Below are positions 37,036-56,331 of a stretch of DNA of 64,000 nucleotides, piece by piece (within the stretch, counting starts at the first letter, position 1; each line of letters opens with the position of its first letter). The stretch comes from a virus. The notes beneath the pieces are model-generated. The model was not told where the DNA came from. It made no database searches and saw only the letters and a program-made list of their open reading frames with translations. The stretch lies in the IMG/VR virus record IMGVR_UViG_3300028115_001816, positions 1-64,000 of that record, one strand, 5' to 3'. The translations under genes were made by a program, and so were the position numbers.

Positions 37036-37041
37036 ATCAGC

Positions 37042-38155: not shown

Positions 38156-38970
38156 GAGAAAAGAAATACAACCAAGGATATTTAACTTTTGCTCAAGGCA
38201 AACAATATCTAAATTGTGCCTACTTGCTTGCTCTTAGTGTTAAAACTTATTGTAAAATTAATAAGTTTGCAGTTGTTGTAGACGAAAATACTCCTGTGCC
38301 AGAACATATGACTAGAGTTTTTGATGAAGTTATTACAATACCTACTATGGAACCTTTTGCAAATGAGTGCCTAGCATGGGAACTTACACCATTTAAAGAA
38401 ACATTTAAGGTTGAGAGTGATATGCTTATTACAAGTAGTATAGATCACTGGTGGTCAGGGGTTAGACTCAAAAATATTTGTTTTACTACACAAGTTTGTA
38501 ACTATAGAGGTGAGTTTGCAGATGATAGTAACTATAGAAAAATGTGGCAAGAAAACAATATGCTCAATGTTTATAATGGCTTTATGTATTTTAGGCATTG
38601 TGTAGAAACAAAGAAGTTTTTTGACGATTGCAAAACTGTATTAAATACATTTAATATATACAAATCGAGTATTTTGAAAAATTGCAGACACGAGTACGCA
38701 GATACAGATGTGTTTATGAGCATAGTTGCTACTGAAACTGGTAGCGAAGATTTTTATGTGCCGACACTAGACTATCCGACATTCACACATATGAAACGTT
38801 ATATAAATCGATTTGGTACAGATGATTGGCGTGATGCGTGTAGTTGGGCATTAACAGATGATAAAATATTTTTAGTAAATGGATATGCCCAAACACGCCC
38901 TTTCCATTATTATCACAAAGACTTTTGCACAGAGGAGTTAACCAAAAGATATGAGCAGTTCGTTCTTTGA
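38152..38970 (+). CDS. glycosyltransferase-like protein (GT-A type)
   Basis: 272 aa. TFAQGKQYLNCAYLLALSVK resembles the start of GT8-like transferases, and the acidic FKVESDMLITSSIDHWW occupies the DxD position. Later parts (VYNGFMYFRHC and YADTDVFMSIVA) resemble the acceptor-side strands of that fold. Starts with ATGA overlap to the previous GT-like gene, so the pair is probably translated together. Assignment is by fold-level motifs only; donor sugar is unknown. Confidence 0.55.
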   Translation: MREKKYNQGYLTFAQGKQYLNCAYLLALSVKTYCKINKFAVVVDENTPVPEHMTRVFDEVITIPTMEPFANECLAWELTPFKETFKVESDMLITSSIDHWWSGVRLKNICFTTQVCNYRGEFADDSNYRKMWQENNMLNVYNGFMYFRHCVETKKFFDDCKTVLNTFNIYKSSILKNCRHEYADTDVFMSIVATETGSEDFYVPTLDYPTFTHMKRYINRFGTDDWRDACSWALTDDKIFLVNGYAQTRPFHYYHKDFCTEELTKRYEQFVL

Positions 38971-39235
38971 AGCACAACATGTATTCGAGTCTGCACCACC
39001 TCCAGAAATACGTTTGTATTATAATCAAGAAGGTGTTATACTTGATAAAAAATATGTAAAAAAGGATTTATCCGAAAACAAAACTTACATTGTAATTACA
39101 CAAGAACAGTATGATGCAATCAATTTTGAAAGACATCGTGTAATAGATAAAGAATTAGTTTGGATAACGCCTAAAAAAACAAACTGGTTTTTAAAACAGG
39201 AAGAATTAGCAAGGAATCCTTATGTCAAAGATTGA
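38951..39235 (+). CDS. hypothetical protein, 94 aa
   Basis: Not recognised. The product contains APPPEIRLYYNQEGVILDKK and NKTYIVITQEQYDAINFER, suggesting a short beta-rich domain, and ends with a basic segment. It overlaps the preceding gene by 20 bases and the following one by 14, so it is embedded in the operon. No signal peptide, membrane segment or metal motif is visible. Confidence 0.6.
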   Translation: MSSSFFEAQHVFESAPPPEIRLYYNQEGVILDKKYVKKDLSENKTYIVITQEQYDAINFERHRVIDKELVWITPKKTNWFLKQEELARNPYVKD

Positions 39236-40133
39236 TGTAGCAGATTTAGATTGTATATATCTAAGTTATGATGAACCTAAAAAAGAAGAGTTCTGGGCTA
39301 AGATACAAAACATGGTACCCTGGGCAAAACGTGTTGACGGCGTTAAAGGATCTGATGCTGCACACAAAGCAGCAGCCAGTGCTAGTGATACTGAGCGTTT
39401 TGTACTAATAGATGGCGACAATATGCCTTATCCAGAATTTTTCGATATAACTTTAGATATAAAACCTGAACATGAAGACTGTGTATTTCGTTGGAAAGCA
39501 GTGAACGCAGTCAACGGACTTATGTATGGTAACGGAGGTATAAGTTGTTGGACACGTGAGTTTGTAAACAACATGCAGACACATGAAAATAGCAATGGAG
39601 CAGATGAAAACGAAGTAGAGTTTTGTTATGATCCAAAATATTTGGCTATGAATAATGTTTATAGCACCACGCATCCTAATGGTGATGAGTTCCACGCATG
39701 GAGAGCAGGATTTAGAGAAGGTGTAAAGATGTGTTTGAAGAAAGGCACAAAGCCTAGTCTGTTAGAATTTAACGAAATGGTTCATCGCAGTAACTTTGAT
39801 AGACTAAGCATATGGCACAACATAGGTGCTGACGCAGAATATGGTGATAGTTGTATAGCAGGTGCTAGATATGGTACTTACAGGACAATGCTTACTGAAT
39901 GGGATTACACAGAAGTACAAGACTTTTACCATTTAGGCGAAATATACAGTGAATGGAAGACTGTTGATCAAACAAACATAAACAAGTTATTACAAACACG
40001 TTTAGGATTACACATAAGTGAGTTTACAAGTGAACAGAGTAAATTTTTTAAAAAACACTACTACAATACCTATACAAAATCAGATCCTATGACATTAGAA
40101 ATAGATATGCTAAGAAAGTCTGAAGGATGGTAA
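39222..40133 (+). CDS. GT-like protein, one-domain member of a marine phage family
   Basis: 303 aa. The order DLDCIYLSYDEPKKEEFW, then AKRVDGVKGSDAAHKAAASA, then RFVLIDGDNMPYPEFFDI, is a nucleotide-sugar-transferase-like layout with an acidic DGDN at the DxD position. A C-terminal segment DSCIAGARYGTYRTMLTE is shared with the 58268-59509 protein (YCTAGANHG). So the two are paralogues; the other one carries the domain twice. The exact reaction is unknown. Confidence 0.55.
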   Translation: MSKIDVADLDCIYLSYDEPKKEEFWAKIQNMVPWAKRVDGVKGSDAAHKAAASASDTERFVLIDGDNMPYPEFFDITLDIKPEHEDCVFRWKAVNAVNGLMYGNGGISCWTREFVNNMQTHENSNGADENEVEFCYDPKYLAMNNVYSTTHPNGDEFHAWRAGFREGVKMCLKKGTKPSLLEFNEMVHRSNFDRLSIWHNIGADAEYGDSCIAGARYGTYRTMLTEWDYTEVQDFYHLGEIYSEWKTVDQTNINKLLQTRLGLHISEFTSEQSKFFKKHYYNTYTKSDPMTLEIDMLRKSEGW

Positions 40134-41101
40134 CAATAGATATTACGCCTTACTGTGGAGCATCTAGGAATTGGAATACTGAAATATTAGCCTGTAAGAT
40201 TGCTCAAAACTCTAATGAAAAAATTATATTAGACCTCAAACATGAGGGTTGGGATATAGTTGAAAATGGTATAGAACAAAAGGTAAAGATTATTTGTGAT
40301 GAATTAAAAATACCTTACACACAAATAGAATTTAGAAGTAGTGATAGACTATGCAAAGCAAAAACATTCAAACATAAAAATACTATCGAACTTTTAAACT
40401 TTTTTGCAAGACTTTTTCAACAAGATATTCAAATAGTTTTGCCTAATAAGTTTCAATATGGATTATTCTGTGGTCGTGCAAGCAATGAAAGGTTATATGC
40501 CTTTTATCATCACAAAAATTGGAAGTATTCGAATAAAGGCAAAGCAAGTATGCATTTAGATGTTAATGATGTGCCGGAAGTTACTAGTGATTATGCAGAA
40601 TTTATCATTGAGTATAACAAAAAATGGAAAGAACTATGTAAAATACTACCATATAGCGATGTATCTCATTACATGAAACCTCCATTGCGTAGACAATCTG
40701 AAGACAAAAATCTATGGAATAACATTTATAAAGACATAGCAATAGAAATTGTTTGTGAAACAAATACAACTCCAGATACTTTTTTCATGACTGAAAAAAT
40801 TATACGTCCTATTGCATATGGAAAACTTTTTTTAGTAATAGGCAGTCCTAACTTTGAATTAAATTTAAAACATATTGGCTTTGACATTTTTGATGATATT
40901 ATTGACAAAAATTATGATAAAGAAAGTAGTTACATGAGAGTAGATAATGTTTTTCAAAGTTTAGAAAAGTTTTTAAGTAATCCAATAGATATAGAAGCAT
41001 TACTGCCACGACTAGAAGCAAACAAAAAAGTTTTAAATAAATTACCAGTGACAATGGCTGGAAACAAGATAGCAAAACTATTAGGACTTGATAATGAGTG
41101 A
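40127..41101 (+). CDS. glycosyltransferase-like protein with C-terminal TEK motif
   Basis: 324 aa. The C-terminal half has VCETNT, FFMTEKIIRPIAYGKLFLVI, then GFDIFDDIIDKNYD. This resembles the nucleotide-sugar-binding end of GT10 (fucosyltransferase-type) enzymes, where TEK and a following glycine-rich strand contact the donor. Two further genes (44499 and 45520) share this C-terminal layout with different N-terminal halves. Substrate unknown. Confidence 0.55.
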   Translation: MVTIDITPYCGASRNWNTEILACKIAQNSNEKIILDLKHEGWDIVENGIEQKVKIICDELKIPYTQIEFRSSDRLCKAKTFKHKNTIELLNFFARLFQQDIQIVLPNKFQYGLFCGRASNERLYAFYHHKNWKYSNKGKASMHLDVNDVPEVTSDYAEFIIEYNKKWKELCKILPYSDVSHYMKPPLRRQSEDKNLWNNIYKDIAIEIVCETNTTPDTFFMTEKIIRPIAYGKLFLVIGSPNFELNLKHIGFDIFDDIIDKNYDKESSYMRVDNVFQSLEKFLSNPIDIEALLPRLEANKKVLNKLPVTMAGNKIAKLLGLDNE

Positions 41102-42452
41102 TTACTATCAAGATGCACTTGTTGCAAAAGATAAATTAGCAAATATAAGTGATAGTTTCTGTTTGGCTAAATGGAAACAAGTAAGTCTGCATCTTACTAC
41201 TGGACATACTAATAGTTGTTATCATCCTCCTTTACATAAAATTCCAATTGCACCACTCTGGGATAATCCTAGTGCATTACATAATACAGAACACAAAAAA
41301 CAAAGTCGCCGTGAAATGATGCAAGGCGTAAAATGTACAGATTGTAATTATTGTTGGAATATAGAAGCACAAGGTAACATAAGTGATAGGCATTATCGTA
41401 GTGGTGAGCCTTGGGCAATGGATAGTTTTGATGAAATAGTTGCTAATCCAGATGCAGATATAAATCCTAGTTATGTAGAAGTTAATTTTAATAATGTTTG
41501 TAATCTTGCATGTAGTTATTGTTCACCACAATTTAGTAGTACATGGACAAAAGAAACTAATTCACTAGGTGCATGGCCCACTACTACACCTCATAATGCT
41601 CCAGAACACTTTACAGGTGAACGCAGAGCAATACCTAACAGAGAAGAAAATCCATACAGAGAAGCATTTTGGCGTTGGTGGCCTGACCTATATAAAGATT
41701 TAAAACATTTTCGTATGACAGGAGGCGAACCTACTATGGATCCAAACACTTACCGTGTGTTTGACTATGTGCTTGAGAATCCCAAAACAGATCTTCATCT
41801 AAATACTACAAGTAATTTTAGCGTTGAAGAAAAGATATGGCAAAAGTACAAGTCGTATGTTCAGCGACTATGTCAAGGTCAACAAATAGAGCATTTTATG
41901 CAATTTGTCAGTCTCGATACTTGGGGTTCTCAAGCAGAATACATTAGACATGGTTTAAACTTTGACCTTGCGATAAATAGATGTGAAGAGTTTGTTAGAG
42001 ATGTACCATATAGAAGCAGTCTAACATTCATCATCACAATGAACAACCTTAGTATTCTTTCATTAAAAAAACTTTTAGAGTATATAGTATACTTGCGTAA
42101 AACATATACAGATACGTATCAACGTATTTGGTTCGATACACCGCTTTTGTATACACCAGAATGGCAAAGTTTACAAATACTTCCTAAAGAATTTAGTATT
42201 TTAATGGATGATATAGTGAAGTATATGGAAGATAACTTAGATGAAATGCATGGATTTAAAGATTACGAAGTTCTTAAGATGAAGAGAGATAGAGATTGGA
42301 TGTTAGCAGGTACAGAAAATGTAGAACGTAAAAGAGGTGACTTTTTTAAGTTTTTTAGCGAACATGATCGTCGCAGAGGAACAAACTTTTTAGAAACATT
42401 TCCTGAGATGGCAACTTTTTGGCAACAGTGCGAGTATTGGAGTAGTAAATGA
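41094..42452 (+). CDS. radical SAM protein, SPASM/twitch-like cysteines N-terminal to core
   Basis: 452 aa from ATG 41094 (TTG 41088 is also in frame). The first part has cysteines at 23 and 42 (SCYHPPLH) and a KCTDCNYCWNIE cluster near 81-87. The radical SAM motif comes only afterwards: C136-NLA-C140-SY-C143. TGGEPTM follows. Thus the auxiliary-cluster-like region precedes the core. Closest relative in the window is 49490-50890. The FSSTW segment after the core motif is shared by both. Substrate unknown. Confidence 0.8.
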   Translation: MSDYYQDALVAKDKLANISDSFCLAKWKQVSLHLTTGHTNSCYHPPLHKIPIAPLWDNPSALHNTEHKKQSRREMMQGVKCTDCNYCWNIEAQGNISDRHYRSGEPWAMDSFDEIVANPDADINPSYVEVNFNNVCNLACSYCSPQFSSTWTKETNSLGAWPTTTPHNAPEHFTGERRAIPNREENPYREAFWRWWPDLYKDLKHFRMTGGEPTMDPNTYRVFDYVLENPKTDLHLNTTSNFSVEEKIWQKYKSYVQRLCQGQQIEHFMQFVSLDTWGSQAEYIRHGLNFDLAINRCEEFVRDVPYRSSLTFIITMNNLSILSLKKLLEYIVYLRKTYTDTYQRIWFDTPLLYTPEWQSLQILPKEFSILMDDIVKYMEDNLDEMHGFKDYEVLKMKRDRDWMLAGTENVERKRGDFFKFFSEHDRRRGTNFLETFPEMATFWQQCEYWSSK

Positions 42453-42826
42453 ATAGAATAAAAAAACTTAATCCTTCTATAAATCCTATTACGTTTAAGG
42501 ACGGAAGAGGCATTATACAGACTTACCTGCCAGAAACAGATACAATAAAAGAATGGAACTATATTGTTACACTTAAAGGTGCTGTAAGAGGACATCATTA
42601 TCATAAAGAATTTGATGAATATATTATGTTTGTTGATGGTGAGGGTGTATACACTGAACTAACAGATGGCAAAGAGCTAGTAACTCCAGTAGCATCTGGT
42701 GATTGTGTATACTTACCCATGCATGTACCACATACATTCTATCCTACTGCTGACTGCAAAATGATTGCACTGATTACTAAAAGATGGGATAAATGCCAAG
42801 AACCTATAACAAAGGTACAGATATGA
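42449..42826 (+). CDS. sugar-modifying cupin (WxcM/FdtA/RmlC-like)
   Basis: 125 aa single cupin. The metal or sugar-binding strand is VRGHHYHKEFDEYIMFVDGE and the second cupin motif contains VYLPMHVPHTFYP. This is the layout of nucleotide-sugar ketoisomerases and 3,5-epimerases (FdtA, WxcM, RmlC relatives). It overlaps both neighbours by 4 bases, and an NAD-dependent epimerase follows. With a DegT aminotransferase at 60330-61409 it could feed a 3-amino-deoxysugar route, which is inference. Confidence 0.65.
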   Translation: MNRIKKLNPSINPITFKDGRGIIQTYLPETDTIKEWNYIVTLKGAVRGHHYHKEFDEYIMFVDGEGVYTELTDGKELVTPVASGDCVYLPMHVPHTFYPTADCKMIALITKRWDKCQEPITKVQI

Positions 42827-43719
42827 AAATAATGATTACAGGTGCATTAGGTTATTTAGGCACTCAACTTCTATCACAACTTGTTGATACTGATGTAGAA
42901 ATAATAGCCATTGACAATAGCACTGAAGCAATATCAAGTCGATTAGGAAGTTTTTTATACAACACTAAATTTTCTTTTTACAATGTAAATGTAACCGATA
43001 CACAGCGATTAAACGCATTGCCCAAAGTTGATTTAATTGTACATTTAGCCAGTGTGGTAGGATATATTAGTTGTAATATTACTCCTGGACTAGCACATGA
43101 CACAAACGTAATAGGTACAGAAAATATTGCTAATTTAAATACTCCTGTTATATATCTAAGCAGTGGAAGTATATACGGTGAAATCGGAGACGTGTGCAAT
43201 GAGGAAACACAAATTAATCCTAAAAGTCTATATGCCGAACATAAAGTTCTCGGCGAGAAGGCGGTAAGTCGCGTTTCCAATGTTATACTTAGACCTGCGA
43301 CATTGTTTGGCTGTAGTTATAAGATCAGAGACGACTTACTGGTACACACACTGATACAAGACGCAGTTAGAACTAACTATATAGATTTATATCAGCCTTA
43401 TGCTCGTAGAAGTTTTTATAGCGTCCGTAAAATGGCTAGTCTTTTAAAATATATATGTGAAAATTACAGTAAATTTGAAGGTGAAGTAGTGAACGTAGGA
43501 TGTGAAACCGGAAACCTTACTAAAAGACAGTTATGTGAAATTATTTCAAAATATACTAACACGGATATTAGAATAGTGCTTGGCCAGGATTTGGATAGTA
43601 GAGATTATAACATTGATTATGGAAAACTTAAATCTTTATGGTCAGAGTATGATGAAAATTTTGAATTACATATACCCAAATTGGTGAGATATTATGAAAA
43701 TATTAGTAACAGGAAGTAG
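42823..43719 (+). CDS. NAD-dependent sugar epimerase/dehydratase (extended SDR)
   Basis: 298 aa from ATG 42823, which overlaps the cupin stop (ATGA); an in-frame ATG at 42793 would add ten unrelated residues. The Rossmann motif is MITGALGYLGTQ (GxxGxxG), then LASVVGY, SSGSIYG and the catalytic Y-x3-K as YAEHK. A NVGCETGNLTKRQL substrate-domain segment follows. It belongs to the GalE/RmlB/Gmd superfamily; which nucleotide sugar it uses cannot be read from sequence. Confidence 0.8.
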   Translation: MKIMITGALGYLGTQLLSQLVDTDVEIIAIDNSTEAISSRLGSFLYNTKFSFYNVNVTDTQRLNALPKVDLIVHLASVVGYISCNITPGLAHDTNVIGTENIANLNTPVIYLSSGSIYGEIGDVCNEETQINPKSLYAEHKVLGEKAVSRVSNVILRPATLFGCSYKIRDDLLVHTLIQDAVRTNYIDLYQPYARRSFYSVRKMASLLKYICENYSKFEGEVVNVGCETGNLTKRQLCEIISKYTNTDIRIVLGQDLDSRDYNIDYGKLKSLWSEYDENFELHIPKLVRYYENISNRK

Positions 43720-44506
43720 GGGTTTCTTCGGACAAAATTGTGTAAAGTATTTTACACAGCGTGGGCATAGTGTTACTGCTTGGACAGAAGATGTTAGAAT
43801 AAGTATGCCTGATGAAAACTATGACGTTTTGATGCCATTTGCTTGTAAGATAGGCGGTCGTAAAGGTATGGATAACAAGGCCTTGATGATAGCGGGAAAT
43901 GTTGAAATAGACAGATGCCAATTTTTGTGGGCAGAAAAGCACTGTGGCAGGATAGTATATCCAGGCAGTAGTAGTGCTTATCCACGTGAAGATTCAATAT
44001 TCTTAGAGCATAGGGTAGGAAGCGACATTCCGTCGGACGATATATATGGACTTTACAATTATTTTAGTGAACGAATGCTTGCCCATTGTAGCATTCCTTC
44101 TAGCATTGTTAGACCAGTTAATGTATACGGACCTGGACAAAGTTTACACTATCCAATGCCTAGTATTATTGAACGTACAAAACGTGGAGAATGCAGTGTA
44201 TGGGGTAGCGGAAAACAAGCACGAGATTGGATACACATTGATGATGTAATGCGTATATTTGAATACTGTGCTACTAGCAATGAAAATATTATAGTTAACG
44301 CCGGTTGTGGGACGGCAATAACTTTTATAGAACTTGCTGAAACTGTGTATCGTATTATACACGGGCATACTATACCAGTAATAACAGATCCTTCTCAACC
44401 CGAAGGCCCATTATATAGGCAAGCAGATATCACACGATTAGAAAGTTTTGGATTGCTTCCCCTTATTAGTTTACAAGAAGGTATTAAGGGAATGATTGAT
44501 GCTTGA
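43694..44506 (+). CDS. extended SDR epimerase-like protein with missing catalytic lysine
   Basis: 270 aa. The cofactor motif VTGSRGFFGQN and SSSAYPRE are present, and RPVNVYGPGQ and ARDWIHIDDV show the GDP-fucose-synthase-like branch. The Y-x3-K pair reads YGLYN: tyrosine is present but the lysine codon is AAT (Asn) at 44065-44067. So the enzyme may be inactive in classical redox chemistry or use another residue. It overlaps the upstream epimerase and the downstream GT-like gene. Substrate unknown. Confidence 0.7.
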   Translation: MKILVTGSRGFFGQNCVKYFTQRGHSVTAWTEDVRISMPDENYDVLMPFACKIGGRKGMDNKALMIAGNVEIDRCQFLWAEKHCGRIVYPGSSSAYPREDSIFLEHRVGSDIPSDDIYGLYNYFSERMLAHCSIPSSIVRPVNVYGPGQSLHYPMPSIIERTKRGECSVWGSGKQARDWIHIDDVMRIFEYCATSNENIIVNAGCGTAITFIELAETVYRIIHGHTIPVITDPSQPEGPLYRQADITRLESFGLLPLISLQEGIKGMIDA

Positions 44507-45539
44507 AAAAGTTGGAATTCACTTTCCTAAAGATTGGCAATATGGACCTGAAGAAATACATATATTTGATAGCACTGCAAAACAAGTAGACAAACAGTTT
44601 CCTAATGATCGTAATCTAGTTATAAACACTACTTGGTTTGGTCCTCAATTTTCTAATGGCGAATGGAAAAAGGCTAACAGTTTTGATCAAGATTTTGATA
44701 ATCTATTCTTGCTTAGTGTAATAGATCCTTTACACTTGCAAAATGAAGACTTAGATTTGCTAATAAAGAAATATAACATAAAAAATGTTTATAGGATAGG
44801 AATGTTTGAAGGCAGTGAGCACGAATGGAACTTTCATGCGTTAATCGGCAAGGATCTGATGCCCAATTATACTGAAGAACAAGTGCTAATGCAAGATCCT
44901 ACATATATCTATATGCTTTATCAACGTAAACCAAGATATCATAGAATAGAAATAACGGAGATACTTAGACAACGTAATTTATTACAAGATGGAATAGTTA
45001 CATTAGGAGGACCAGATTCTGAAACAAAGTGGGAAGGTCATCATAAAGATTGGGAAGTTTTAAAAATCGAAGATTATCCAGAGAATTATTTAGGTACAGG
45101 AGGTCCAAAAGATGCATTTGGCGGAGTGCCTGATGATTTAGTAACAGTTGGCAGACTAGATTTATGGCAATCCCATTTTTTAAATATATCTAGCGAAACA
45201 GTGTTTGATGAATGGGAACCGTTATTAGTCACAGAAAAGATGTGGAAACCTATTATTGGGCTAAGACCTTTCATAGTGCATGGAAACCCTAAAACATATT
45301 CTTGGATGAGAAAAAATGGTTTCAAAACATTTAATAATTACTGGAAACATATTGATGTGGAAAATCTTGGTGCTCATGATACTGTTTATAGAGTTATAGA
45401 ATTTCTAAAAACACAAGATCTATCAAAAATGTACATTGACATGTTAGCAGACTTACGCTACAATAAAGAACGATTTTATGAGTTTAGTAGCGAGCAAGAA
45501 TATAAAATGGAGAACATTTTTGAAAATTATAAGCCCTAA
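44499..45539 (+). CDS. glycosyltransferase-like protein with TEK motif
   Basis: 346 aa from ATG 44499 (TTG 44496 precedes it in frame). The C-terminal half contains EPLLVTEKMWKPIIGLRPFI, HGNPKTYSWMRKNGFKTF and an acidic helix, the same layout as the 40127 and 45520 products. The N-terminal half (PEEIHIFDSTAKQV) is distinct. Probably a GT10-type or related transferase; acceptor and donor unknown. Confidence 0.55.
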   Translation: MLEKVGIHFPKDWQYGPEEIHIFDSTAKQVDKQFPNDRNLVINTTWFGPQFSNGEWKKANSFDQDFDNLFLLSVIDPLHLQNEDLDLLIKKYNIKNVYRIGMFEGSEHEWNFHALIGKDLMPNYTEEQVLMQDPTYIYMLYQRKPRYHRIEITEILRQRNLLQDGIVTLGGPDSETKWEGHHKDWEVLKIEDYPENYLGTGGPKDAFGGVPDDLVTVGRLDLWQSHFLNISSETVFDEWEPLLVTEKMWKPIIGLRPFIVHGNPKTYSWMRKNGFKTFNNYWKHIDVENLGAHDTVYRVIEFLKTQDLSKMYIDMLADLRYNKERFYEFSSEQEYKMENIFENYKP

Positions 45540-46620
45540 TATTTTTTTCCCTCGTATGCTTTTGGAAGAATATAAAGAATATTTTGAAAAAGCACATAGT
45601 AAACTAAGTCCTTGTGATAGTATCTTTGTTTGTATGTTCGATGATATAAAAAGTTATGCTTTTACCCAAAATAAGGTTATTATATTTTATATAGATACTT
45701 TTTTTGATCATAGACAAATTGAAGATTATGTTGAAGTTTTTAATTTACATAAAGATAAACAATTTTATGTTTTTTCAGATAAGTTCAATTTACAGTCTGA
45801 TATGTATGCACCAAATTGTAAACATTTTCAAATAGGATTAGGTGATCAAAGTGTTCTACAATTAGGCACACATGCTACCGCAGTTGAGGATAAGAATTTT
45901 GATAGTGACTGTATTGGTATTTCTTTAAATAGACAACCTAGAAATTTTAGGTTAATGCTTATCTCTTATTTACTAGGCATAAATTTTAATCAACATTGTA
46001 GGATTACTGCACCATTACTACAGACAAGAATTAAAGAAGAGAAAAATATTCTAAATATATGTAATTATGATTTTTATGACTACACAGATACTATACTAAA
46101 GGGTTGGGAAAAAGCCAAACAAAATGATGGAATAACAGATACAACTGATGCGTGGGAGCCTATTAATGTAAAGGAAAAAGTAAAGTCTGATGAGACAGTA
46201 AATCCTTTAGAAAATTATAATCTTAGACTAACACCAATGTTTAAAAACAGTTTTGTTGAGGTTGTGTGTGAAACGAACTACGATTACAATTTTTCCTGTA
46301 TCACTGAAAAAACAATGCAAAACCAATTAGGAAAAAATTTTCCACTATATATGTGCAATACTGGGTATGTAAAATACTTACGTGATAATGGTTTTGATTG
46401 TTTTGATGATATTATAGACCACTCTTATGATAAAGAGACAGATCCAATTTTGCGAATGGTAAAAATGATACAAGATAATAAAATGTTGTTTATTGATACA
46501 GAAAAAACCAAAAACCTGTGGATTAAAAATAGTAATAGGTTTGATTACAATGTAAAATGCTTAGTTAAAATATATACTGATATAAGTAATAAAATTAAGA
46601 ATGTATTAGATGAATTGTGA
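45520..46620 (+). CDS. glycosyltransferase-like protein with TEK motif
   Basis: About 366 aa from TTG 45520, which has GGAG 7 bases upstream and little overlap; an ATG at 45478 would overlap the previous gene by 62 bases. The C-terminal half has VVCETNYDYNFSCITEKTMQ, then YLRDNGFDCFDDIIDHSYDK, nearly the same pattern as the 40127 product (VCETNT, GFDIFDDIID). The N-terminal half contains IIFYIDTFFDHRQ and IGISLNRQPRNFRLML. Likely a third paralogous transferase of this operon; the substrate is unknown. Confidence 0.55.
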   Translation: MKIISPNIFFPRMLLEEYKEYFEKAHSKLSPCDSIFVCMFDDIKSYAFTQNKVIIFYIDTFFDHRQIEDYVEVFNLHKDKQFYVFSDKFNLQSDMYAPNCKHFQIGLGDQSVLQLGTHATAVEDKNFDSDCIGISLNRQPRNFRLMLISYLLGINFNQHCRITAPLLQTRIKEEKNILNICNYDFYDYTDTILKGWEKAKQNDGITDTTDAWEPINVKEKVKSDETVNPLENYNLRLTPMFKNSFVEVVCETNYDYNFSCITEKTMQNQLGKNFPLYMCNTGYVKYLRDNGFDCFDDIIDHSYDKETDPILRMVKMIQDNKMLFIDTEKTKNLWIKNSNRFDYNVKCLVKIYTDISNKIKNVLDEL

Positions 46621-48112
46621 TATCTTGTTAATAAATGTTCCAAGGATAAGTTTGGTATATCCTCCTGCAGGCACAAGTTTACTGAAAGGGGTTGTAGAAC
46701 AACAAGGATTTACCTGTACTGTAAAGGATGCAAACTTTGAATTATTAGATAGCATTAAAGATCCAGATGATTTTGAAACAATTACAAATTATTTTACTAT
46801 CCCTAATGCAGAAATTACTACAAATTGTCAAAATATTATAGACGAATGGTATACTGACCTTGTAAATTATATACTTAAACTTAATCCTAAACATGTTGGT
46901 ATAAGTGTTTTTACATTTGAATGTCAGGTTGCTACTCGTGAACTTTGTAAACTTTTAAGGCAAGTTTATAATGGTAAAATTATAATAGGAGGTGCTGGAT
47001 TAAGTACTACAGGTATTGCAACACAAGTAAATGACTTTGGAAATAACCTTTTAGAAAATAATCTAGTAGATTATTACGTTAGAGGTGAAGGAGAACTTGC
47101 ACTTGTTGATATATTAAAAGAAAATAAAGGTGCAGGCATAAACAATGACAATTATATTCAAATTGAAGACCTTAATAGTTTAGCATATCCAAATTATGAT
47201 GATGTTATCAAGTACAAATACCATTATGCAATAGAGAATATACAACTTCCAATAACAACTAGCAGAGGTTGTGTAAGACGTTGCAGTTTTTGTGATATAC
47301 ATGCATTTTGGAAAAAGTATACATATAGATCTGGCGAAAATATTGCAAAGGAAATGGTTAGTCATTATGAAAAATATGGTGTACGTGACTTTTTCTTTAC
47401 AGATAGTTTAATTAATGGCAATCTTAAAAGTTTTAGACAATTATGTGATTGCTTGGTGACGTATTATGAAGAAAACAATTTGCCAGACAGATTTTTTAGT
47501 TGGGGAGGACAATGGATTGTAAGAACAGAAAAACATTTGAGTCCAGATGACTATAAAAATGCTGCACGTAGTGGTATGAATGGACTTGCAATGGGTGTTG
47601 AAAGCCTAAGTGAGCAAGTTCGTAAGGATATGAATAAAGGATTTAAGAACGAAGACATAGATTATACACTTGAACAGTTTAGATTACATAGTATTAACTG
47701 TTATTTTCTAATGATTGTAGGATATCCAACAGAAACTGAAGAACATCACTTAGAAACAATGCAGAACTTTGTAAAATATCAAGGATATGCTATAGATGGT
47801 ACAATATTTGGAGTAAACTTGGGAGGAACACTTAGTATTGACGAAGGAAGTCCTCTACATCAAGATAGTATACACTTTGGACTAGAACCTACTACAGAAA
47901 ATGAAGAATTATTTGGATTAGATTGGACAAGCAAAGAAAATCCAAAACTTACACTACTGGAAAGAATAAATCGACGAATTGACCTACAGGAATTACTTAT
48001 GGATTTAGGATATACTGTATGGAACGGTGATCACCAATTAAAAAGACTTAAAGCAAGTTATGAGCGTATTAAACAAAATACCTATCACTTTAAAGATATA
48101 CTACACTCATAG
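46610..48112 (+). CDS. radical SAM protein with N-terminal B12-binding-like domain
   Basis: 500 aa. Residues 1 to about 170 form the Rossmann domain typical of B12-dependent radical SAM enzymes (DILLINVPR, VYPPAGTSLLKGVVEQQG, GISVFTFE, IIIGGAGLS). The usual cobalamin-ligand DxHxxG motif is absent: the region reads KDANFELLD. The radical SAM cluster is TTSRGCVRRCSFC (C221, C225, C228), followed by FFFTDSLINGN and GVESLSEQVRKDMNKG. Cobalamin, if bound, would lack the normal lower ligand. Such enzymes methylate or rearrange unactivated carbons. Ends inside the next gene by 53 bases. Confidence 0.75.
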   Translation: MNCDILLINVPRISLVYPPAGTSLLKGVVEQQGFTCTVKDANFELLDSIKDPDDFETITNYFTIPNAEITTNCQNIIDEWYTDLVNYILKLNPKHVGISVFTFECQVATRELCKLLRQVYNGKIIIGGAGLSTTGIATQVNDFGNNLLENNLVDYYVRGEGELALVDILKENKGAGINNDNYIQIEDLNSLAYPNYDDVIKYKYHYAIENIQLPITTSRGCVRRCSFCDIHAFWKKYTYRSGENIAKEMVSHYEKYGVRDFFFTDSLINGNLKSFRQLCDCLVTYYEENNLPDRFFSWGGQWIVRTEKHLSPDDYKNAARSGMNGLAMGVESLSEQVRKDMNKGFKNEDIDYTLEQFRLHSINCYFLMIVGYPTETEEHHLETMQNFVKYQGYAIDGTIFGVNLGGTLSIDEGSPLHQDSIHFGLEPTTENEELFGLDWTSKENPKLTLLERINRRIDLQELLMDLGYTVWNGDHQLKRLKASYERIKQNTYHFKDILHS

Positions 48113-48569
48113 TGGACATGAAAATGGCTGGCCACTATGTAGAGTCCTATGGGATAACAAACAAGTAGCAAACTTTAAAGCAGATGGACAAGAGATTGAA
48201 TTTACTGTGATGCCTAAACCTAAAGGTACAAGCACACTAATTGTAGAACATTATGGAAAAAATGTATATGAAGAACACGATAAATTTATAGAAATAATAG
48301 GTATGAGAATAAACAATATTCCTTTAAAGAATATACTATGGGAATCTACACAGTATCCTATTACTGCACCATGGGACGAACCTTGGCAAGAAGAAGGAAA
48401 CTTATATCTAGGTCATAATGGCCATATAGTGTGGCACTTTAGTAATCCAGTTTTACTAGACATACAAAATAGATTAGGTGTTAAGAAGAAACCACAAGAA
48501 GGGCAGGAAAGCACTAAGAAAGTTTTACAAGAAATAAAAGAATATTTTAGAAATGAAAAAGATAGATAA
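48060..48569 (+). CDS. unknown beta-rich protein, possible carbohydrate-binding fold
   Basis: 169 aa from ATG 48060, the only usable start; this overlaps the radical SAM gene upstream by 53 bases. Segments TLIVEHYGKNVYEEHDKFIE, IIGMRINNIPL and GNLYLGHNGHIVWHF suggest a beta-sandwich of the type seen in calcium-dependent carbohydrate-binding modules. That fold is a guess. The 49188 product has a similar but shorter pattern (FFGKN, DHVIIKNI, FNGIWELKF), and both flank the oxygenase-like gene. Confidence 0.5.
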   Translation: MSVLNKIPITLKIYYTHSGHENGWPLCRVLWDNKQVANFKADGQEIEFTVMPKPKGTSTLIVEHYGKNVYEEHDKFIEIIGMRINNIPLKNILWESTQYPITAPWDEPWQEEGNLYLGHNGHIVWHFSNPVLLDIQNRLGVKKKPQEGQESTKKVLQEIKEYFRNEKDR

Positions 48570-49191
48570 TTTTTTTACAGAAAACGATTGTAAGTGGTTT
48601 CAATGGTATCATAACGTTTTGCCAGAGTCTAGAGATAACGGACTACGTATACAAACTATGACACATTTTGCACAACCATTTTTTGCTAGAAAGTTAAAAC
48701 AAATACAAAGTTTACTTCCAGATAATGAAGAAGTTACTACATTGAATATAAATTTTGATTATGGTGCAGGCGGAATACATAGCGATGGATATCTCGAGCA
48801 TGATAAAAATGATAAAATTGCAAATAGTTATCTAATACCTATTCAAGTCCATCCTACAGACAAGTATTACACAGTAATTTTCGAACAAACTAGTATGGAA
48901 GCAATTACGTTCAATGGTGAACTTGGACTAGGAGATAAAGGTATAACAACTTATAGGCAAGTGTCTAGGGAAGAATTTGGATTAAGTAACGAACCTTTTG
49001 ATAAAGATGTTTATAATAAGTATCTTACTCATTTAAATTATGATGCACTAAAAGGTTTGACAGTTGCACACATTCATGCATGGACACTAGGCAGTGCTAT
49101 GACTTGGCCCAGACAAAACTTTCATGTTAGTGCAAACTTTATAAACAAGGACACAAGAGCAAGTGTATTAATTGTTACGAGATATAAATGA
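48553..49191 (+). CDS. Fe(II)/2-oxoglutarate oxygenase-like protein
   Basis: 212 aa. The facial triad type HxD is GGIHSDGYLEHD (H76, D78). A distal histidine lies in NFHVSANFIN and a basic residue in TRASVLIVTRYK, at the positions expected for the second iron ligand and 2-oxoglutarate binding. These make an oxygenase or hydroxylase likely, acting on a small molecule or residue made by neighbours. It overlaps genes on both sides by 4-17 bases. Motif-level assignment only. Confidence 0.5.
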   Translation: MKKIDNFFTENDCKWFQWYHNVLPESRDNGLRIQTMTHFAQPFFARKLKQIQSLLPDNEEVTTLNINFDYGAGGIHSDGYLEHDKNDKIANSYLIPIQVHPTDKYYTVIFEQTSMEAITFNGELGLGDKGITTYRQVSREEFGLSNEPFDKDVYNKYLTHLNYDALKGLTVAHIHAWTLGSAMTWPRQNFHVSANFINKDTRASVLIVTRYK

Positions 49192-49493
49192 TAGAATTCG
49201 AATTCGAAAACAACGGTAGTTTAGAATATGAAGTTACACTCACAAACAATGGTGCTAAGATAAGATTCTTTGGAAAAAATTATAGTACAAATACAGAAGA
49301 TCATGTTATAATAAAGAATATAATTTATAAAGATTTAATTTTACCAGAACTTTTTGGATACACAAAAATGACAACAGACAATAAAGATTATGCTAACTTA
49401 ACTAATGTAAATTATATTTCATTTAATGGTATATGGGAATTAAAATTTACAGAACAAGATATTAAAAATATACTAAAGAAGAAACTTACATGA
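49188..49493 (+). CDS. unknown small beta-rich protein
   Basis: 101 aa, overlapping both neighbours by 4 bases (ATGA). It reads like a shortened relative of the 48060 product: IRFFGKN, DHVIIKNIIYKDL and FNGIWELKFTEQD align in order with GKN, KFIEIIGM and HNGHIVWHF there. A beta-sandwich binding domain is possible. No catalytic residues are seen. Confidence 0.55.
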   Translation: MIEFEFENNGSLEYEVTLTNNGAKIRFFGKNYSTNTEDHVIIKNIIYKDLILPELFGYTKMTTDNKDYANLTNVNYISFNGIWELKFTEQDIKNILKKKLT

Positions 49494-50890
49494 CTGAAGG
49501 TAATCCAGAAAATAATTTAGAACGTATTTTACAAAACACATTACCGCCACATGATTTCAAACGTGAGCATTTGGATACAAGAAGTGCAAGTTTTTGTGGT
49601 GCAAAATGGTATAATGCTACAGTATGGCTTGGTAGTGGCATGACAACTAGTTGTCATCATCCATTACCACATAAAATAGATGCAGAAGCAGTCAAAACAA
49701 ATCCTAAACTGTTACACAATACTCCTGAGAAAAAAGAACAACGCAGACAAATGCAGTGTGGCGAAAGACCTGCAGGATGTGAATACTGCTGGAAAATTGA
49801 GGACATGGGTCCTGACCATATAAGTGATAGAATTTATAAAAGTTGGATATATACAGATGAGGAACTTACTGATGCATTTACAACAGACTATAAAGAAGAT
49901 TTTGAACTTAGAAGTCTTGAAATCGCCTTTGATAGAACATGCAATTTTGCTTGCAGTTATTGTAATCCTGCGTTTTCAAGCACATGGGTAAAAGATATAA
50001 ACAATAAAGGACCATACCAAAATCTGCAAAGTGATGGTAGAGGACATTTCATACATCCACATGATAGTAACCAGTTGTATGGATACGGAGAGTATAATCC
50101 ATATGTAGAAGCATTCTTTAAATGGTGGGAAAGTGATTTACATAAAACACTAAGGCAATTAAGAGTAACAGGTGGCGAACCACTAATGAGTGCAGACTTA
50201 TGGAAACTTATAGAATGGTTTGAAAAGAATGGCGATAAAAGTCAAACAAGTTTAGCAATTAATAGTAATTTAGTAGCAAAACCAGAATTAATACAAAGAC
50301 TTGTTGATGTTAAATCTCACTTGCCAAGTTTAGGTGTTTACAGTAGTTGCGAAGCAGTAGATTCTAGTGCAGAATATATTCGTGATGGTATGGTATTTGA
50401 TCAGTGGTGGCAAAACATGCAAAAATTACATGAAGCAGATATTGACACACATTGTATGATGACAATAAATGCACTTTGTTTAGAAACGTTGCCTGAACTT
50501 GTGGATCGTATAATGCAAAAGCGAAAAGAGTATAATGGTAATAGATTTGCAATAATGAGTTTCAATATACTAAGATTTCCAAGTTTTCAAAGTCCTTTAG
50601 TGCTGAGCAATGAAATAAAAAAATATCATGTAGAGAAACTTACTGAACTTAGAAAAAAGTGGGCACCTAAGTATCTTAATAGGAGTGATTGTTTTCATGA
50701 GTTTGAACTAGGACAGTTGGATAGACTTATAGAATATTTACAAGTAGTAGATAAGCCACACAGTGAAGGTTTTGATATGCCTAGATTACACAATGACTTC
50801 AAACAATTTTACACACAATATGATATTAGACGCAACAAAAATTTTACAAAAACTTTTCCAGAATTAGAAGAATGGTATGAGTCGCTCTAA
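49490..50890 (+). CDS. radical SAM protein, SPASM/twitch-like cysteines N-terminal to core
   Basis: 466 aa. N-terminal cysteines at 36, 55 (TSCHHPLPH), 90, 97 and 100 (GCEYCWKIE) precede the radical SAM motif C151-NFA-C155-SY-C158. CNPAFSSTW and VTGGEPLM follow. It is the closest relative of the 41094 product: same CHHP/CYHP segment, same EYCW/NYCW motif, same FSSTW. The domain order is reversed relative to classical SPASM enzymes. Starts in the stop of the 101-aa gene, ends 14 bases inside the next radical SAM gene. Confidence 0.8.
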   Translation: MTEGNPENNLERILQNTLPPHDFKREHLDTRSASFCGAKWYNATVWLGSGMTTSCHHPLPHKIDAEAVKTNPKLLHNTPEKKEQRRQMQCGERPAGCEYCWKIEDMGPDHISDRIYKSWIYTDEELTDAFTTDYKEDFELRSLEIAFDRTCNFACSYCNPAFSSTWVKDINNKGPYQNLQSDGRGHFIHPHDSNQLYGYGEYNPYVEAFFKWWESDLHKTLRQLRVTGGEPLMSADLWKLIEWFEKNGDKSQTSLAINSNLVAKPELIQRLVDVKSHLPSLGVYSSCEAVDSSAEYIRDGMVFDQWWQNMQKLHEADIDTHCMMTINALCLETLPELVDRIMQKRKEYNGNRFAIMSFNILRFPSFQSPLVLSNEIKKYHVEKLTELRKKWAPKYLNRSDCFHEFELGQLDRLIEYLQVVDKPHSEGFDMPRLHNDFKQFYTQYDIRRNKNFTKTFPELEEWYESL

Positions 50891-52181
50891 AACAGAAAAA
50901 TATTACGAAACTTACGACTACAATAGTAGGAGGCCAGTCTTTGTAGAATTAGAATCCTTACGTGATGATCAACAAAAAAAATTAATTGAAAGTAAGTATT
51001 TTTGTATGATTCCTTGGACACATATACACGGATTTCCAACAGGAGAAGCATACCCTTGTTGTTTAGGTGAGATGAAACACCCTATTGGAAACATGAGAGA
51101 AAATACTCTAGAGGAAATATGGAATGGTGAGCAATATACACAAATGCGTACTAATATGCTTGCAGACAGGCCTTGTAAAGAGTGTACACGTTGTTACGAA
51201 CAAGAAGAACAAGGATTTTTTAGTATGCGTAATAGCAGTAATAAACATTTCGGACATCATATACATAAAGTAGATCAAGGAATTAATCCAAATTTTGAAT
51301 TAGTCTATTGGGATATACGTTTTAGTAATCAATGTAATTTAAAATGTCGTAGTTGTGGTCCTATGTTTAGTAGTTTATGGTATGATGATCATGTAAAAAT
51401 GCATGGACAACCTCCTAATCATAAACGTATAGAATGGGCCGGGCGTAACAAGAATGATATTTGGGAACAAATGATCCCACATATAGACCATATAGAGCAA
51501 ATATATTTTGCAGGTGGTGAACCACTTATAATGCAAGAGCATTACAATATACTTAAAGAATTAGTAAAAAGAGAAAAGTTTGATGTAAAGTTAATATATA
51601 ATACAAACTTTAATGAAACATTGTATAAAGATTTAGATGTACTAGATTATTGGGGAATGTTTGATAGCGTTAGTGTAGGTGCAAGTTTAGATGCTAGTGG
51701 CAATCGTGCAGAACTAATGCGTAAAGGTTGTGACTGGAATAAAATTACTGCTAACAGAGAACGTATGTTAAAAAAATGTCCAAAAGTAGATTTTTATATT
51801 AGTCCTACACTAAGTTTAATGAATGTAGATCATATACCAGACTTTCATAAGGATTGGGTAGAGCGTGGTTTGTTGAAACCACAAGATTTAAATATAAACA
51901 TTTTACAGAGTCCAGATTGGTATCGTGTAGATTGTTTACCAGATAATATTAAAAAGGATTTAACACATAAATTAAATGAACATATAAACTGGTTAAGTCC
52001 TAAAGATAATTTGCAAAGAGCAACAAACGGATTCAAAAGTCTTATAAGTTTTATGAATGCACAAGATAATACAACTCATTTAGAAAAGTTCAATCAAGTA
52101 ACAACTCAATTAGACAAAGTAAGGATAGAAAATTTTTATAAAGTCTTTCCAGAGTTAGAAAGTCTAAAACAGTATGCATAA
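50877..52181 (+). CDS. radical SAM protein, N-terminal SPASM-like domain
   Basis: 434 aa. Residues of about 40-110 read as a textbook SPASM domain: CMIPWTHIHG, AYPCC, IGNMRENTLEEIWNG and CKECTRC (cysteines 43, 61, 62, 100, 103, 106). The radical SAM cluster follows: C153-NLK-C157-RS-C160, then FAGGEPLI and GASLDASG. In classical family members SPASM is C-terminal. Here it leads. The order is shared by four other genes of this operon. Substrate unknown; SPASM proteins usually modify peptides or proteins. Confidence 0.82.
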   Translation: MSRSKTEKYYETYDYNSRRPVFVELESLRDDQQKKLIESKYFCMIPWTHIHGFPTGEAYPCCLGEMKHPIGNMRENTLEEIWNGEQYTQMRTNMLADRPCKECTRCYEQEEQGFFSMRNSSNKHFGHHIHKVDQGINPNFELVYWDIRFSNQCNLKCRSCGPMFSSLWYDDHVKMHGQPPNHKRIEWAGRNKNDIWEQMIPHIDHIEQIYFAGGEPLIMQEHYNILKELVKREKFDVKLIYNTNFNETLYKDLDVLDYWGMFDSVSVGASLDASGNRAELMRKGCDWNKITANRERMLKKCPKVDFYISPTLSLMNVDHIPDFHKDWVERGLLKPQDLNINILQSPDWYRVDCLPDNIKKDLTHKLNEHINWLSPKDNLQRATNGFKSLISFMNAQDNTTHLEKFNQVTTQLDKVRIENFYKVFPELESLKQYA

Positions 52182-53343
52182 ATGTATATTACCATGGATT
52201 AGTATAGAAGCAACACCTATGGGAACAACAAGACCCTGTTGTTTATATACAGACGAAATACCAAATATCAATCTTAAAAATAGTACACTAGACGATGCTT
52301 TTAATAGTAGAACTATGCGTGATTTAAGACGTAGTTTTAGAAGAGGTGAAAAGCCTGAAGGATGTAGGAATTGTTGGCGTGAAGAAGATGCAGGGAAAAA
52401 AAGCAAGCGGCAATATATGTTAGATAAGTTTAAACATTTAAATGTTGAATATAAAGACAACAAGGGTGAGAAACTTCTATTTTTAGACTTAAAATTAGGA
52501 AACATTTGTAACTTAAAATGTCGTATTTGTGGAAGCTGGAGTAGTAGTAAATGGGCACAAGAAGAATGGGATTACACAGGAAAACATAAAGATCATATAG
52601 CAAAAAAGTGGCTAAAGGACGGGCAGTGGGTAAGAAAATCGCCTAACTTTTGGAAAAACTTAGATGAATTATTACCACAAATAAAATACTTTGAATTTAC
52701 TGGTGGTGAGCCTTGGATGATAAAACAACATTTTGAATTATTACAACGTGCAGTTGAACAAGGTTTTGCAAAAGATATTGACATTCATTACAATACAAAC
52801 ACTACACAGTACCCAAAAGATCCAACTATATGGAAATATTTTAAACATGTACAGATTGCGTTTAGTGTAGACAACACAAAAGAACGTTTTGAGTATGAGC
52901 GTTATGGCGCAAAATGGAAAACATCAAATTCTAATATAAAAAAAGTTCATAGGTTGCGTGAACAAGGATATCCAATTACTACACAATTGTGTTGTACATG
53001 GAACATACAAAATATTTTTTATTTAGATGAAATATTAACTTGGGCATACACAATGGACTTTGATAATATACATTTTAATCTTATGCATGATCCTTGGGAA
53101 TTTAGTTTAAATTGTACCCCAAAAACTGCAAGAGCTCCTCTAATGCTTTATTTGCAAAAACAACAGATAAAACATAAGAAATATGCAACAGATATTCATG
53201 CTCTTAAACAAATTATTGTTGATAGTACTCACGAATCTAGTGATGATATAACAAAAAGATTAAGACGTACAGACTTATATCGTAATCAAAATTTTGCAAT
53301 AAGTCATAGTAAAATTGCAAAGGCTATAAACTATGAACTCTAA
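52174..53343 (+). CDS. radical SAM protein, N-terminal SPASM-like domain
   Basis: 389 aa. A compact SPASM-like segment occupies residues 1-70: CILPWISIEATPMGTTRPCC, STLDDAFN and GCRNCWREED (cysteines 4, 22, 23, 64, 67). The radical SAM cluster is C112-NLK-C116-RI-C119, then FTGGEPWM. It starts 8 bases before the end of the previous radical SAM gene and overlaps the next by 11, so three of these are consecutively coupled. SPASM-first order as in its neighbours. Target unknown. Confidence 0.82.
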   Translation: MHKCILPWISIEATPMGTTRPCCLYTDEIPNINLKNSTLDDAFNSRTMRDLRRSFRRGEKPEGCRNCWREEDAGKKSKRQYMLDKFKHLNVEYKDNKGEKLLFLDLKLGNICNLKCRICGSWSSSKWAQEEWDYTGKHKDHIAKKWLKDGQWVRKSPNFWKNLDELLPQIKYFEFTGGEPWMIKQHFELLQRAVEQGFAKDIDIHYNTNTTQYPKDPTIWKYFKHVQIAFSVDNTKERFEYERYGAKWKTSNSNIKKVHRLREQGYPITTQLCCTWNIQNIFYLDEILTWAYTMDFDNIHFNLMHDPWEFSLNCTPKTARAPLMLYLQKQQIKHKKYATDIHALKQIIVDSTHESSDDITKRLRRTDLYRNQNFAISHSKIAKAINYEL

Positions 53344-54610
53344 ACCTGAAAATTTATGTATGGCTCCTTGGACTCATACATATCTTAGTCCACAAACAGA
53401 ACGCAGACTGTGTTGTGCTAGTCGTGAACCTGCACAAAATTTTAAACAGTATATCGATACTGCAGAAGGCACAAACGAATATAAACCACAGCCATTAGAA
53501 GAATATTGGAACAGTGAAAATATTAGGCGTATTCGTATACAGATGCTAAACAACGAAGTTCCTCCTGAATGTGTAGTATGTGATAAAAAATTATTAAACC
53601 AAGATGTATATAGAGATTATTTTAGTCATTTGTTTGCACACAAATGGCACGAAATAATTCCTAGCACAGATGAGACAGGCCATACTACTATGAAGCCTGT
53701 AAGTTGGGATTACCGTTTTAGCAACTTATGTAATTTTAAATGTAGAATGTGTGGTCCTATGTTGAGCAGTGCTTGGGAAACAGAAGCACGTAAGCAAGGC
53801 AAAATAGAACCTTGGATGGAAAAACCTGTAAAACGTAAAATAGAAGAATTCCAAAAAAACACAGTTGAACAAGAATTCTCAGATGCAGTTGAAGAACATA
53901 GAGTAGAAGAAATTTACTGGGTAGGTGGAGAACCACTTATGTACGAACAACACTGGCGTTATATGCAACGTATAATTGAATTAGGAGATGGCCCAGGTTT
54001 ATATGCACGTTACAATACTAATTTGCATAGGGTAAATTATAAAGGTATTAATCTTTATCAGGATATATTGGATAATATTCGTGATTGGCAAATATGTGCA
54101 AGTTTAGATGGAACAGGCAAAATTGGAGAGTACATTAGAACAGGTTTAGATTATAATGTATGGTTAGAAAATTTTAAACAAGGATTAGCACACAGTAGAA
54201 ACAGACGCATGATGCGTATAGATTTCACTTTAACATTACCGGGTTTATTTGATATAGTAAATATATGTAGATTAGCACGTGAACTAGATGTTGATATACT
54301 TGCTAAAGTAACTTTTGCATTTACACCAGATATTGCAATGAGTCCACTTTTCCTACCTAAAGATATATTACATTCATATATAAATGAATTGTTATTGACA
54401 AGTGAAGTGGATAATATTACAATTAGAAATATGCTTGTAAGTTTATTAGAGCGACCTACATTTGAAGAAGAATTTCCTGATGAATATGCAAAAGCAAGAA
54501 TCAAAGGCAAATGGCGTATGCAAGCAATGGATAATTTACGTGGTCGTATGAAGTTTGAAGATACACTTAAGACGCAACAAGCAAAAGACTTTTGGAATGG
54601 AATTTGTTAG
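53333..54610 (+). CDS. radical SAM protein, N-terminal SPASM-like domain
   Basis: 425 aa. The leading domain has CMAPWTHTYLS, LCCAS, EEYWNSENI and CVVCDKK (cysteines 9, 27, 28, 80, 83); the third cysteine of the ECTRC-type motif is absent. The core cluster is C133-NFK-C137-RM-C140, then WVGGEPLM and ASLDGTG. It overlaps the previous radical SAM gene by 11 bases, and its stop is immediately followed by the ATG of the APS-kinase-like gene. The missing cysteine suggests a different or absent auxiliary cluster. Confidence 0.82.
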   Translation: MNSKPENLCMAPWTHTYLSPQTERRLCCASREPAQNFKQYIDTAEGTNEYKPQPLEEYWNSENIRRIRIQMLNNEVPPECVVCDKKLLNQDVYRDYFSHLFAHKWHEIIPSTDETGHTTMKPVSWDYRFSNLCNFKCRMCGPMLSSAWETEARKQGKIEPWMEKPVKRKIEEFQKNTVEQEFSDAVEEHRVEEIYWVGGEPLMYEQHWRYMQRIIELGDGPGLYARYNTNLHRVNYKGINLYQDILDNIRDWQICASLDGTGKIGEYIRTGLDYNVWLENFKQGLAHSRNRRMMRIDFTLTLPGLFDIVNICRLARELDVDILAKVTFAFTPDIAMSPLFLPKDILHSYINELLLTSEVDNITIRNMLVSLLERPTFEEEFPDEYAKARIKGKWRMQAMDNLRGRMKFEDTLKTQQAKDFWNGIC

Positions 54611-56226: not shown

Positions 56227-56331
56227 ATGATAAATTGGGTCAAAAGTATTATTAATAAAATTAAACTTGAAATACGCTATAGAAAGCGTTTGAAAGAATT
56301 AAGAAAAAGGGATCCATTTATATACAAATGA
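56227..56331 (+). CDS. 34-aa basic micro-protein
   Basis: ATG 56227 to TGA 56331. The product is a short amphipathic basic helix (IINKIKLEIRYRKRLKELRK) ending in RDPFIYK. Its stop overlaps the carbamoyltransferase ATG (ATGA), a coupling that argues for translation. An AGGAAA site lies upstream. It may act mainly as a coupling leader or as a small partner of the enzyme; no function is assigned. Confidence 0.6.
   Translation: MINWVKSIINKIKLEIRYRKRLKELRKRDPFIYK

Follow-up and report, generated by a model that had tools for sequence, protein, structure and literature searches.

Five radical S-adenosylmethionine (SAM) genes between positions 41094 and 54610 of the viral record IMGVR_UViG_3300028115_001816 encode members of the NF033640 (N_Twi_rSAM) family, in which a twitch domain stands ahead of the radical SAM core. 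The analysed stretch, here called the window, comprises positions 1 to 64,000 and is part of a 77.9-kb viral record. The five proteins share one set of seven ligand cysteines and are, by their phylogeny, five deep, ancient orthologous types. They are kept in a conserved order across viral loci, where they are linked with predicted glycosyltransferase and carbamoyltransferase genes and preceded by a promoter-like boundary. The NF033640 model describes single proteins; the conserved cassette of five types, the order of its genes and their linkage with glycosyltransferases are undescribed as far as a literature search of open-licence papers shows, and a paper naming the family was not found in that search. 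The labels A-E correspond to the open reading frames (ORFs) starting at 41094, 49490, 50877, 52174 and 53333:

41094..42452, + strand: N_Twi radical SAM enzyme type A (NF033640 8.6e-94; clade A support 1.0)
49490..50890, + strand: N_Twi radical SAM enzyme type B (NF033640 7.1e-92; AlphaFold2 predicted template modelling score (pTM) 0.85; clade support 0.997)
50877..52181, + strand: N_Twi radical SAM enzyme type C (NF033640 1.8e-119; Pfam SPASM 8.8e-14; clade support 0.998)
52174..53343, + strand: N_Twi radical SAM enzyme type D (NF033640 1.5e-96; SPASM 3.5e-7; clade support 0.913)
53333..54610, + strand: N_Twi radical SAM enzyme type E (NF033640 2.1e-88; SPASM 1.7e-4; clade support 1.0)

Domain layout and cysteine ligands

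An earlier note on this DNA had described the five genes as carrying a twitch/SPASM-like region before the CxxxCxxC core. This layout was confirmed, all five ORFs being real and the region preceding the core in each. Pfam SPASM (PF13186) was matched at residues 43-106, 4-68 and 9-84 of C, D and E, respectively, before Radical_SAM, and NF033640 spans A-E almost end to end with 297-399 bits (curated cut-off 170). NF033640 is the NCBIfam model "twitch domain-containing radical SAM protein", with twitch denoting a short SPASM. By these profile matches, the N-terminal layout is already known as a curated and named family; the model has no assigned function, and the proteins were thus not placed in a characterised family with a known substrate. 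The profile scores, together with the conservation over more than 100 independent loci, rule out a chance origin of the layout.

The second part of the earlier observation, that all five proteins differ in their auxiliary cysteines and that one lacks a ligand, did not hold. The four twitch cysteines (C43, C62, C103 and C106 in the numbering of the 50877 protein) and the three core cysteines are invariant across A-E, and the same seven residues are kept in 100% of the members of every clade. Only additional cysteines vary among A-E, e.g. the second cysteine of "CC" in C, D and E. The motif given as PW...CC...EIWN is present in these three proteins, whereas A and B have AKW...SC(Y/H)HP...LHNT. 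Because the cluster ligands are identical, the argument from differing cysteines to distinct clusters was rejected and the proposed step from distinct auxiliary clusters to distinct substrates is unsupported; the split into five types rests on phylogeny and on clade-specific conservation. The clade-specific conserved cysteines are C446 in A, C330 in B, C301 in C, C273 in D and C255 in E. They are not claimed as hydrogen-atom donors, because their alignment positions differ between the clades and could not be placed structurally.

The five-type cassette across viral loci

Viral contigs were scanned with each of the proteins, resulting in 428 relatives of A, 24 of C, 8 of D and 73 of E, and more than 600 of B among the matches listed. 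The annotated fetched loci contained 1,253 full-length N_Twi ORFs, and loci sharing 101-mers were collapsed to 136 non-redundant viral locus groups. In the tree of 368 representatives each window gene was placed in its own deep clade (support 0.91-1.0). All five types were present in 106 of the 136 locus groups, nearly always in the order A-B-C-D-E and on one strand. The composition was exactly ABCDE in 62 groups, and most of the others had ABCDE with an extra paralogue or were cut by a contig end. The five genes were directly contiguous in only 17 of the 106 groups, with accessory genes inserted at varying points; the B-C, C-D and D-E genes typically overlap or abut, and the 7-kb A-B gap of the window is the largest seen. 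The median identities of A-E were 0.63, 0.62, 0.51, 0.48 and 0.66, respectively, and that of the virion-like protein family encoded just upstream (fam4) was 0.36.

The linkage with glycosyltransferases was tested independently on loci fetched by the neighbouring GT-A gene (fam0) alone, 49 of the 77 new loci sharing no 101-mers with the first set. N_Twi genes were found in 46 of these 49 loci, in 45 cases on the + strand and in one on the other.

Neighbouring genes and phage setting

The cassette site is the region following the tail and virion genes. In the canonical layout the virion genes are followed by the promoter/stem-loop, a ~104-aa protein, two GT8-like genes, a ~118-aa protein, the GT-A gene and A; then come an optional glycosyltransferase-like gene, B, C, D, a further optional glycosyltransferase-like gene, E, fam3 and the carbamoyltransferase. 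In a neighbourhood search, as the earlier note had proposed, the ordered set A-E was usually flanked by glycosyltransferase and carbamoyltransferase genes in the viral loci. The corresponding features of the window are:

36085..36984, + strand: S/T/G-rich virion-like protein (fam4), candidate acceptor, without conserved cysteine in the alignment; just before the cassette in 98/136 loci
36985..37041, + strand: predicted promoter/stem-loop boundary separating the virion genes from the cassette (sequence scan)
37042..37386, + strand: ~104-aa protein (fam2), first cassette gene; 102/136 loci
37322..38155, + strand: GT8-like (glycogenin-like) glycosyltransferase 1 (fam1), by profile match with glycogenin (2.5e-6)
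38152..38970, + strand: GT8-like glycosyltransferase 2 (fam1), on the same match
38951..39235, + strand: small protein, tentatively fam5 (~118 aa) by position and visual similarity; clustering placed it in a separate small family
39222..40133, + strand: predicted GT-A-fold glycosyltransferase (fam0) with an invariant DxD (D64, D66); 135/136 loci, usually directly upstream of A
40127..41101, + strand: putative glycosyltransferase-like protein (fam7), accessory; 86/136 loci; no profile match, glycosyltransferase nature judged by eye
46610..48112, + strand: radical SAM protein with a B12-binding domain, accessory, located in the 7-kb insert between A and B; only 7/136 loci have this family
56328..57842, + strand: NodU/Nol-type carbamoyltransferase (Pfam Carbam_trans_C 1.3e-50 and Carbam_trans_N 1e-33; phrog_1601 3.6e-91); 86/136 loci
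57843..58157, + strand: Fe-S assembly domain protein (PF01883, 1.2e-17), accessory; 6/136 loci

The fam1 family was detected in 118 of the 136 loci, its profile matching glycogenin over ~100 residues. The AlphaFold2 model of fam0 had a predicted local distance difference test (pLDDT) value of 92, and its residues ~3-160 matched GT-A-fold enzymes, including a PBCV-1 glycosyltransferase, with Z values of 8-9. As nucleotidyltransferases have the same fold, fam0 is regarded as a predicted GT-A glycosyltransferase. No relationship between fam1 and fam0 was detected by hhalign. The fam3 protein (~362 aa, e.g. L206:20047-21132) follows E in 101 of the 136 loci. By position and composition, fam4 would be a virion protein. 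A second GT-A-family-related protein, with an extra N-terminal part, is encoded at 58268-59509, and the PF01883 protein at 57843-58157 adjoins the Fe-S-rich cassette.

The window has the features of a jumbo myovirus, among them baseplate wedge proteins, a virion protein of 4,422 aa, a late sigma factor of the T4 type and SbcC/SbcD-like genes. For the marker protein at 33894, the closest relatives from cultured phages are those of Sinorhizobium phage Phosso and Atu_ph07, and several related contigs are 315-345 kb long. The earlier count of eight radical SAM genes in 64 kb was reproduced, with A-E, the B12 type at 46610 and the genes at 610 and 1497. The latter pair, described as having their auxiliary cysteines at the C-terminus, do carry the pattern C-x18-CC-x40/48-C-x3-C there; Pfam SPASM was sub-threshold in 1497 and gave no match in 610. 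Both of these C-terminal-SPASM-like genes (610-2528, - strand) match phrog_21308.

Promoter and stem-loop upstream of the cassette

A predicted promoter with the perfect sigma70 consensus TTGACA-N17-TATAAT is located at 37007-37035 (12/12 match, with TG before the -10), and an 8-bp palindrome, ACAGGCGC-TACG-GCGCCTGT, lies within its spacer. The region in front of the first cassette gene (~104-aa protein) was scored in 98 loci; the promoter score was at least 10/12 in 50 of them, compared with 7 of the shuffled sequences. A stem of at least 8 bp was present there in 42% of the loci, compared with 1% of the shuffled sequences and 2% of the regions upstream of fam0. Promoter early stem-loops (PeSL) have been described for T4-like phages, as cited in PMC4503421. 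A sigma70-like promoter with a stem-loop at a module boundary is found here as well, the likeness being one of sequence layout only. The T4 late-promoter motif TATAAATA occurs once in 64 kb (6889-6896), compared with 14.75 expected, and stands directly before structural genes. The cassette may thus be an early, separate transcription unit, and its expression in a late operon with the virion genes is weakened by the single TATAAATA at 6889 and by the promoter/stem-loop at the cassette boundary.

Structural comparison

The AlphaFold2 model of type B (pLDDT 83.6, pTM 0.85) matched the cores of SkfB, BlsE, DesII and MoaA with Z values of 13-14, and predicted viral proteins over its whole length. 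The RiPP (ribosomally synthesized and post-translationally modified peptide) maturase SkfB was among the best structural matches, tied with others. In the PDB, a sequence search for a close solved relative gave only a weak MoaA match for B and none for C. The helical C-terminal part had no clear fold match among the matches listed for the whole proteins.

The classical SPASM/twitch enzymes (SkfB, anSMEcpe, MoaA, BlsE, DesII, PqqE) have two things in common with the N_Twi proteins: the cysteine pattern of the auxiliary cluster and the fold of the radical SAM core, for which the type B model gave Z values of 10-14. However, the auxiliary domain of classical SPASM enzymes is C-terminal, whereas in A-E it is N-terminal, with SPASM before Radical_SAM in C, D and E and the auxiliary cysteines before the core in all five. 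Classical SPASM domains contain seven auxiliary cysteines for two clusters; in A-E only four auxiliary cysteines are conserved. In addition to the N-terminal twitch, A-E carry the helical C-terminal part, unlike the classical enzymes.

Relatives in bacteria

The scan of cellular genomes resulted in nine loci. Five were in Bdellovibrionota or in bacterial contigs of metagenome-assembled genomes (MAGs) without phage neighbours, and four, in MAGs from other groups, carried the phage cassette. NF033640 scored above the cut-off in 73 of 241 Bdellovibrionota genomes and in none of 14 control genomes; the N_Twi layout is therefore not limited to the window. In the phylum of the Flavobacterium MAG, the only one of 148 genomes above the cut-off was the cassette-bearing MAG itself. 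One bacterial genome of ~2.7 Mb (G004, the genome of L279) has more than 12 N_Twi genes above the cut-off. An 876-aa bacterial ORF (L420:11448-14078) has two N_Twi matches as a tandem fusion, and similar long frames were seen in other Bdellovibrionota genomes.

In the mixed tree each phage type had Bdellovibrionota relatives in or beside its clade; the five types had therefore probably separated before the transfer between phage and bacterium. The bacterial chromosomal cluster L274, located between rplU-obg and lgt, carries types B, E, D, C, D, A and B and a further A-like gene. GT-A homologues adjoin N_Twi genes in the Bdellovibrionota loci L322 and L325-L328.

Known systems in cultured and marine phages

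No match was obtained when B, fam0, fam4 and fam2 were searched against cultured phages. In KVP40, a distant N_Twi gene and a PF00534 glycosyltransferase gene share a short unit. KVP40.0272 and KVP40.0261 have the same cysteine layout as N_Twi (e.g. 14, 31/32, 68, 71 and then 103, 107, 110), and KVP40.0272 adjoins the glycosyltransferase gene. However, the KVP40 radical SAM proteins are distant (~23% identity to type D) and do not form a five-gene set.

The distantly related cultured jumbo phages Atu_ph07 and Phosso have radical SAM clusters at the same syntenic site, but these enzymes are of the classical C-terminal-SPASM kind and lack the N_Twi architecture. A ~300-aa protein is encoded beside the radical SAM genes of Phosso (L421:16327-17247) and Atu_ph07 (L423:18086-18976). 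Nearly all of its 16 C-terminal residues are conserved (FCHSSCHASCHNSRSRR and YCHTSCHASCHSSRSRR, respectively) compared with 42% overall identity, and this protein with its Cys-rich tail is the likely substrate there. The tail, (F/Y)CH(S/T)SCHASCH(N/S)SRSRR, is a RiPP-like tail on a phage protein.

According to the available text of PMC7029224, the host-recognition cluster of pelagimyophages includes cassettes of radical SAM genes, and GT8 genes, common in such clusters of marine phages, were proposed to modify the host O-chain. The radical SAM cassettes and the GT8-rich content of this tail-fibre/host-recognition region resemble the arrangement described here. The cassettes are mentioned in that text only as differences between two phages, with no family, types, order or domain layout.

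Discussion

The ordered set A-E beside glycosyltransferases and a carbamoyltransferase supports a coherent modification system, as the earlier note had interpreted these genes; its argument from different auxiliary clusters is the part that did not survive. Our preferred explanation, offered tentatively, is that A-E may be the conserved core of a phage module for the assembly and radical tailoring of one surface glycoconjugate, most probably on a tail-associated virion protein. The two GT8-like enzymes and the GT-A enzyme would lay down a core glycan, and A-E would act on this common scaffold, stepwise, in five different radical steps. The CxxxCxxC [4Fe-4S] cluster of each enzyme would make the 5'-deoxyadenosyl radical, and its N-terminal twitch cluster may serve in electron transfer or substrate anchoring. 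The variable glycosyltransferases and the carbamoyltransferase would finish the glycan. We infer the single scaffold, the stepwise action, the glycan rather than a protein as the target, the virion rather than the host as its bearer, the early timing and the chemistry.

Several points weigh against this explanation. N_Twi queries were used to fetch most loci, and these are related by descent; the conservation of order is therefore partly inheritance. In the loci selected by the GT-A gene, all five types were in order in only 12 of the 32 with at least 9 kb downstream; the rest were shorter, cut by the fetched length, or real variants (ACCC, AAdDD, ABED). Together with the N_Twi genes in 46 of 49 loci, this indicates that the glycosyltransferase linkage is robust and that the complete set is frequent, not universal. 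The L274 cluster has no recognised glycosyltransferase inside, and the enzymes may therefore act together without a glycan. No relative of the fam3 protein was found in Pfam, PHROG or the PDB, and the protein was not found in the window. The sigma70-like promoter suggests early over late expression, a timing less directly compatible with virion assembly. Finally, SPASM/twitch enzymes often act on peptides.

The last point leads to protein maturation, a somewhat unlikely alternative, in which A-E would modify side chains of a neighbouring virion protein such as fam4, much as RiPP or sulfatase maturases do, while the glycosyltransferases would act separately. Proteins and peptides are the common substrates of twitch/SPASM enzymes, the place of SkfB among the tied best structural matches of type B agrees with this, and an Asp/Asn hydroxylase adjoins N_Twi genes in one bacterial genome. 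The Cys-rich-tailed protein beside the Phosso and Atu_ph07 genes at the syntenic site points the same way, but the enzymes there are classical C-terminal-SPASM proteins and fam4 has no conserved cysteine. Furthermore, no RiPP recognition element (RRE) or PqqD-type Pfam match was found in the cassette proteins scanned, though divergent RREs can escape such a scan, and the small conserved proteins inspected (fam2, fam5) contain no RiPP-like repeated core.

It is unlikely that the cassette is an early module which rewrites the host lipopolysaccharide or capsule and thereby blocks competing phages. Such a role would fit the conserved sigma70-like promoter with its stem-loop, the chromosomal NF033640 genes kept by Bdellovibrionota, and the O-chain modification proposed for marine GT8 genes in the available text of PMC7029224. 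However, the cassette follows tail and virion genes, and no flippase, polymerase or other transport function was recognised among the annotated cassette genes of the window. Hypermodification of phage DNA bases by the radical SAM enzymes, the glycosyltransferases and the P-loop kinase at 54611 is very improbable: known pathways of this kind do employ radical SAM proteins along with P-loop kinases and glycosyltransferases, but the kinase family is present in only 20 of the 136 loci, a thymidylate-synthase-family enzyme (PF00303) in only 2 of 5 large, possibly incomplete cassette-bearing contigs (the window has ThyX), and the cassette lies beside virion genes.

Returning to the tailoring of a surface glycoconjugate, the cassette could possibly represent, as a bolder claim made with more reserve, a five-step radical SAM assembly line common to uncultured jumbo phages and Bdellovibrionota, in which five C-H activations on one surface scaffold would yield a class of modification not yet described. 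The analysis turns a named family without a function into a defined and testable set: five orthologous types which occur together, along with candidate acceptors and glycosyltransferases as predicted partners. Cultured phages make tests possible, as KVP40 and K566 have distant members and Phosso and Atu_ph07 have classical-SPASM clusters at the corresponding site. If the explanation is true, phages decorate a surface by radical chemistry in several steps, and the cassette would help to find out what the many N_Twi enzymes of Bdellovibrionota do.

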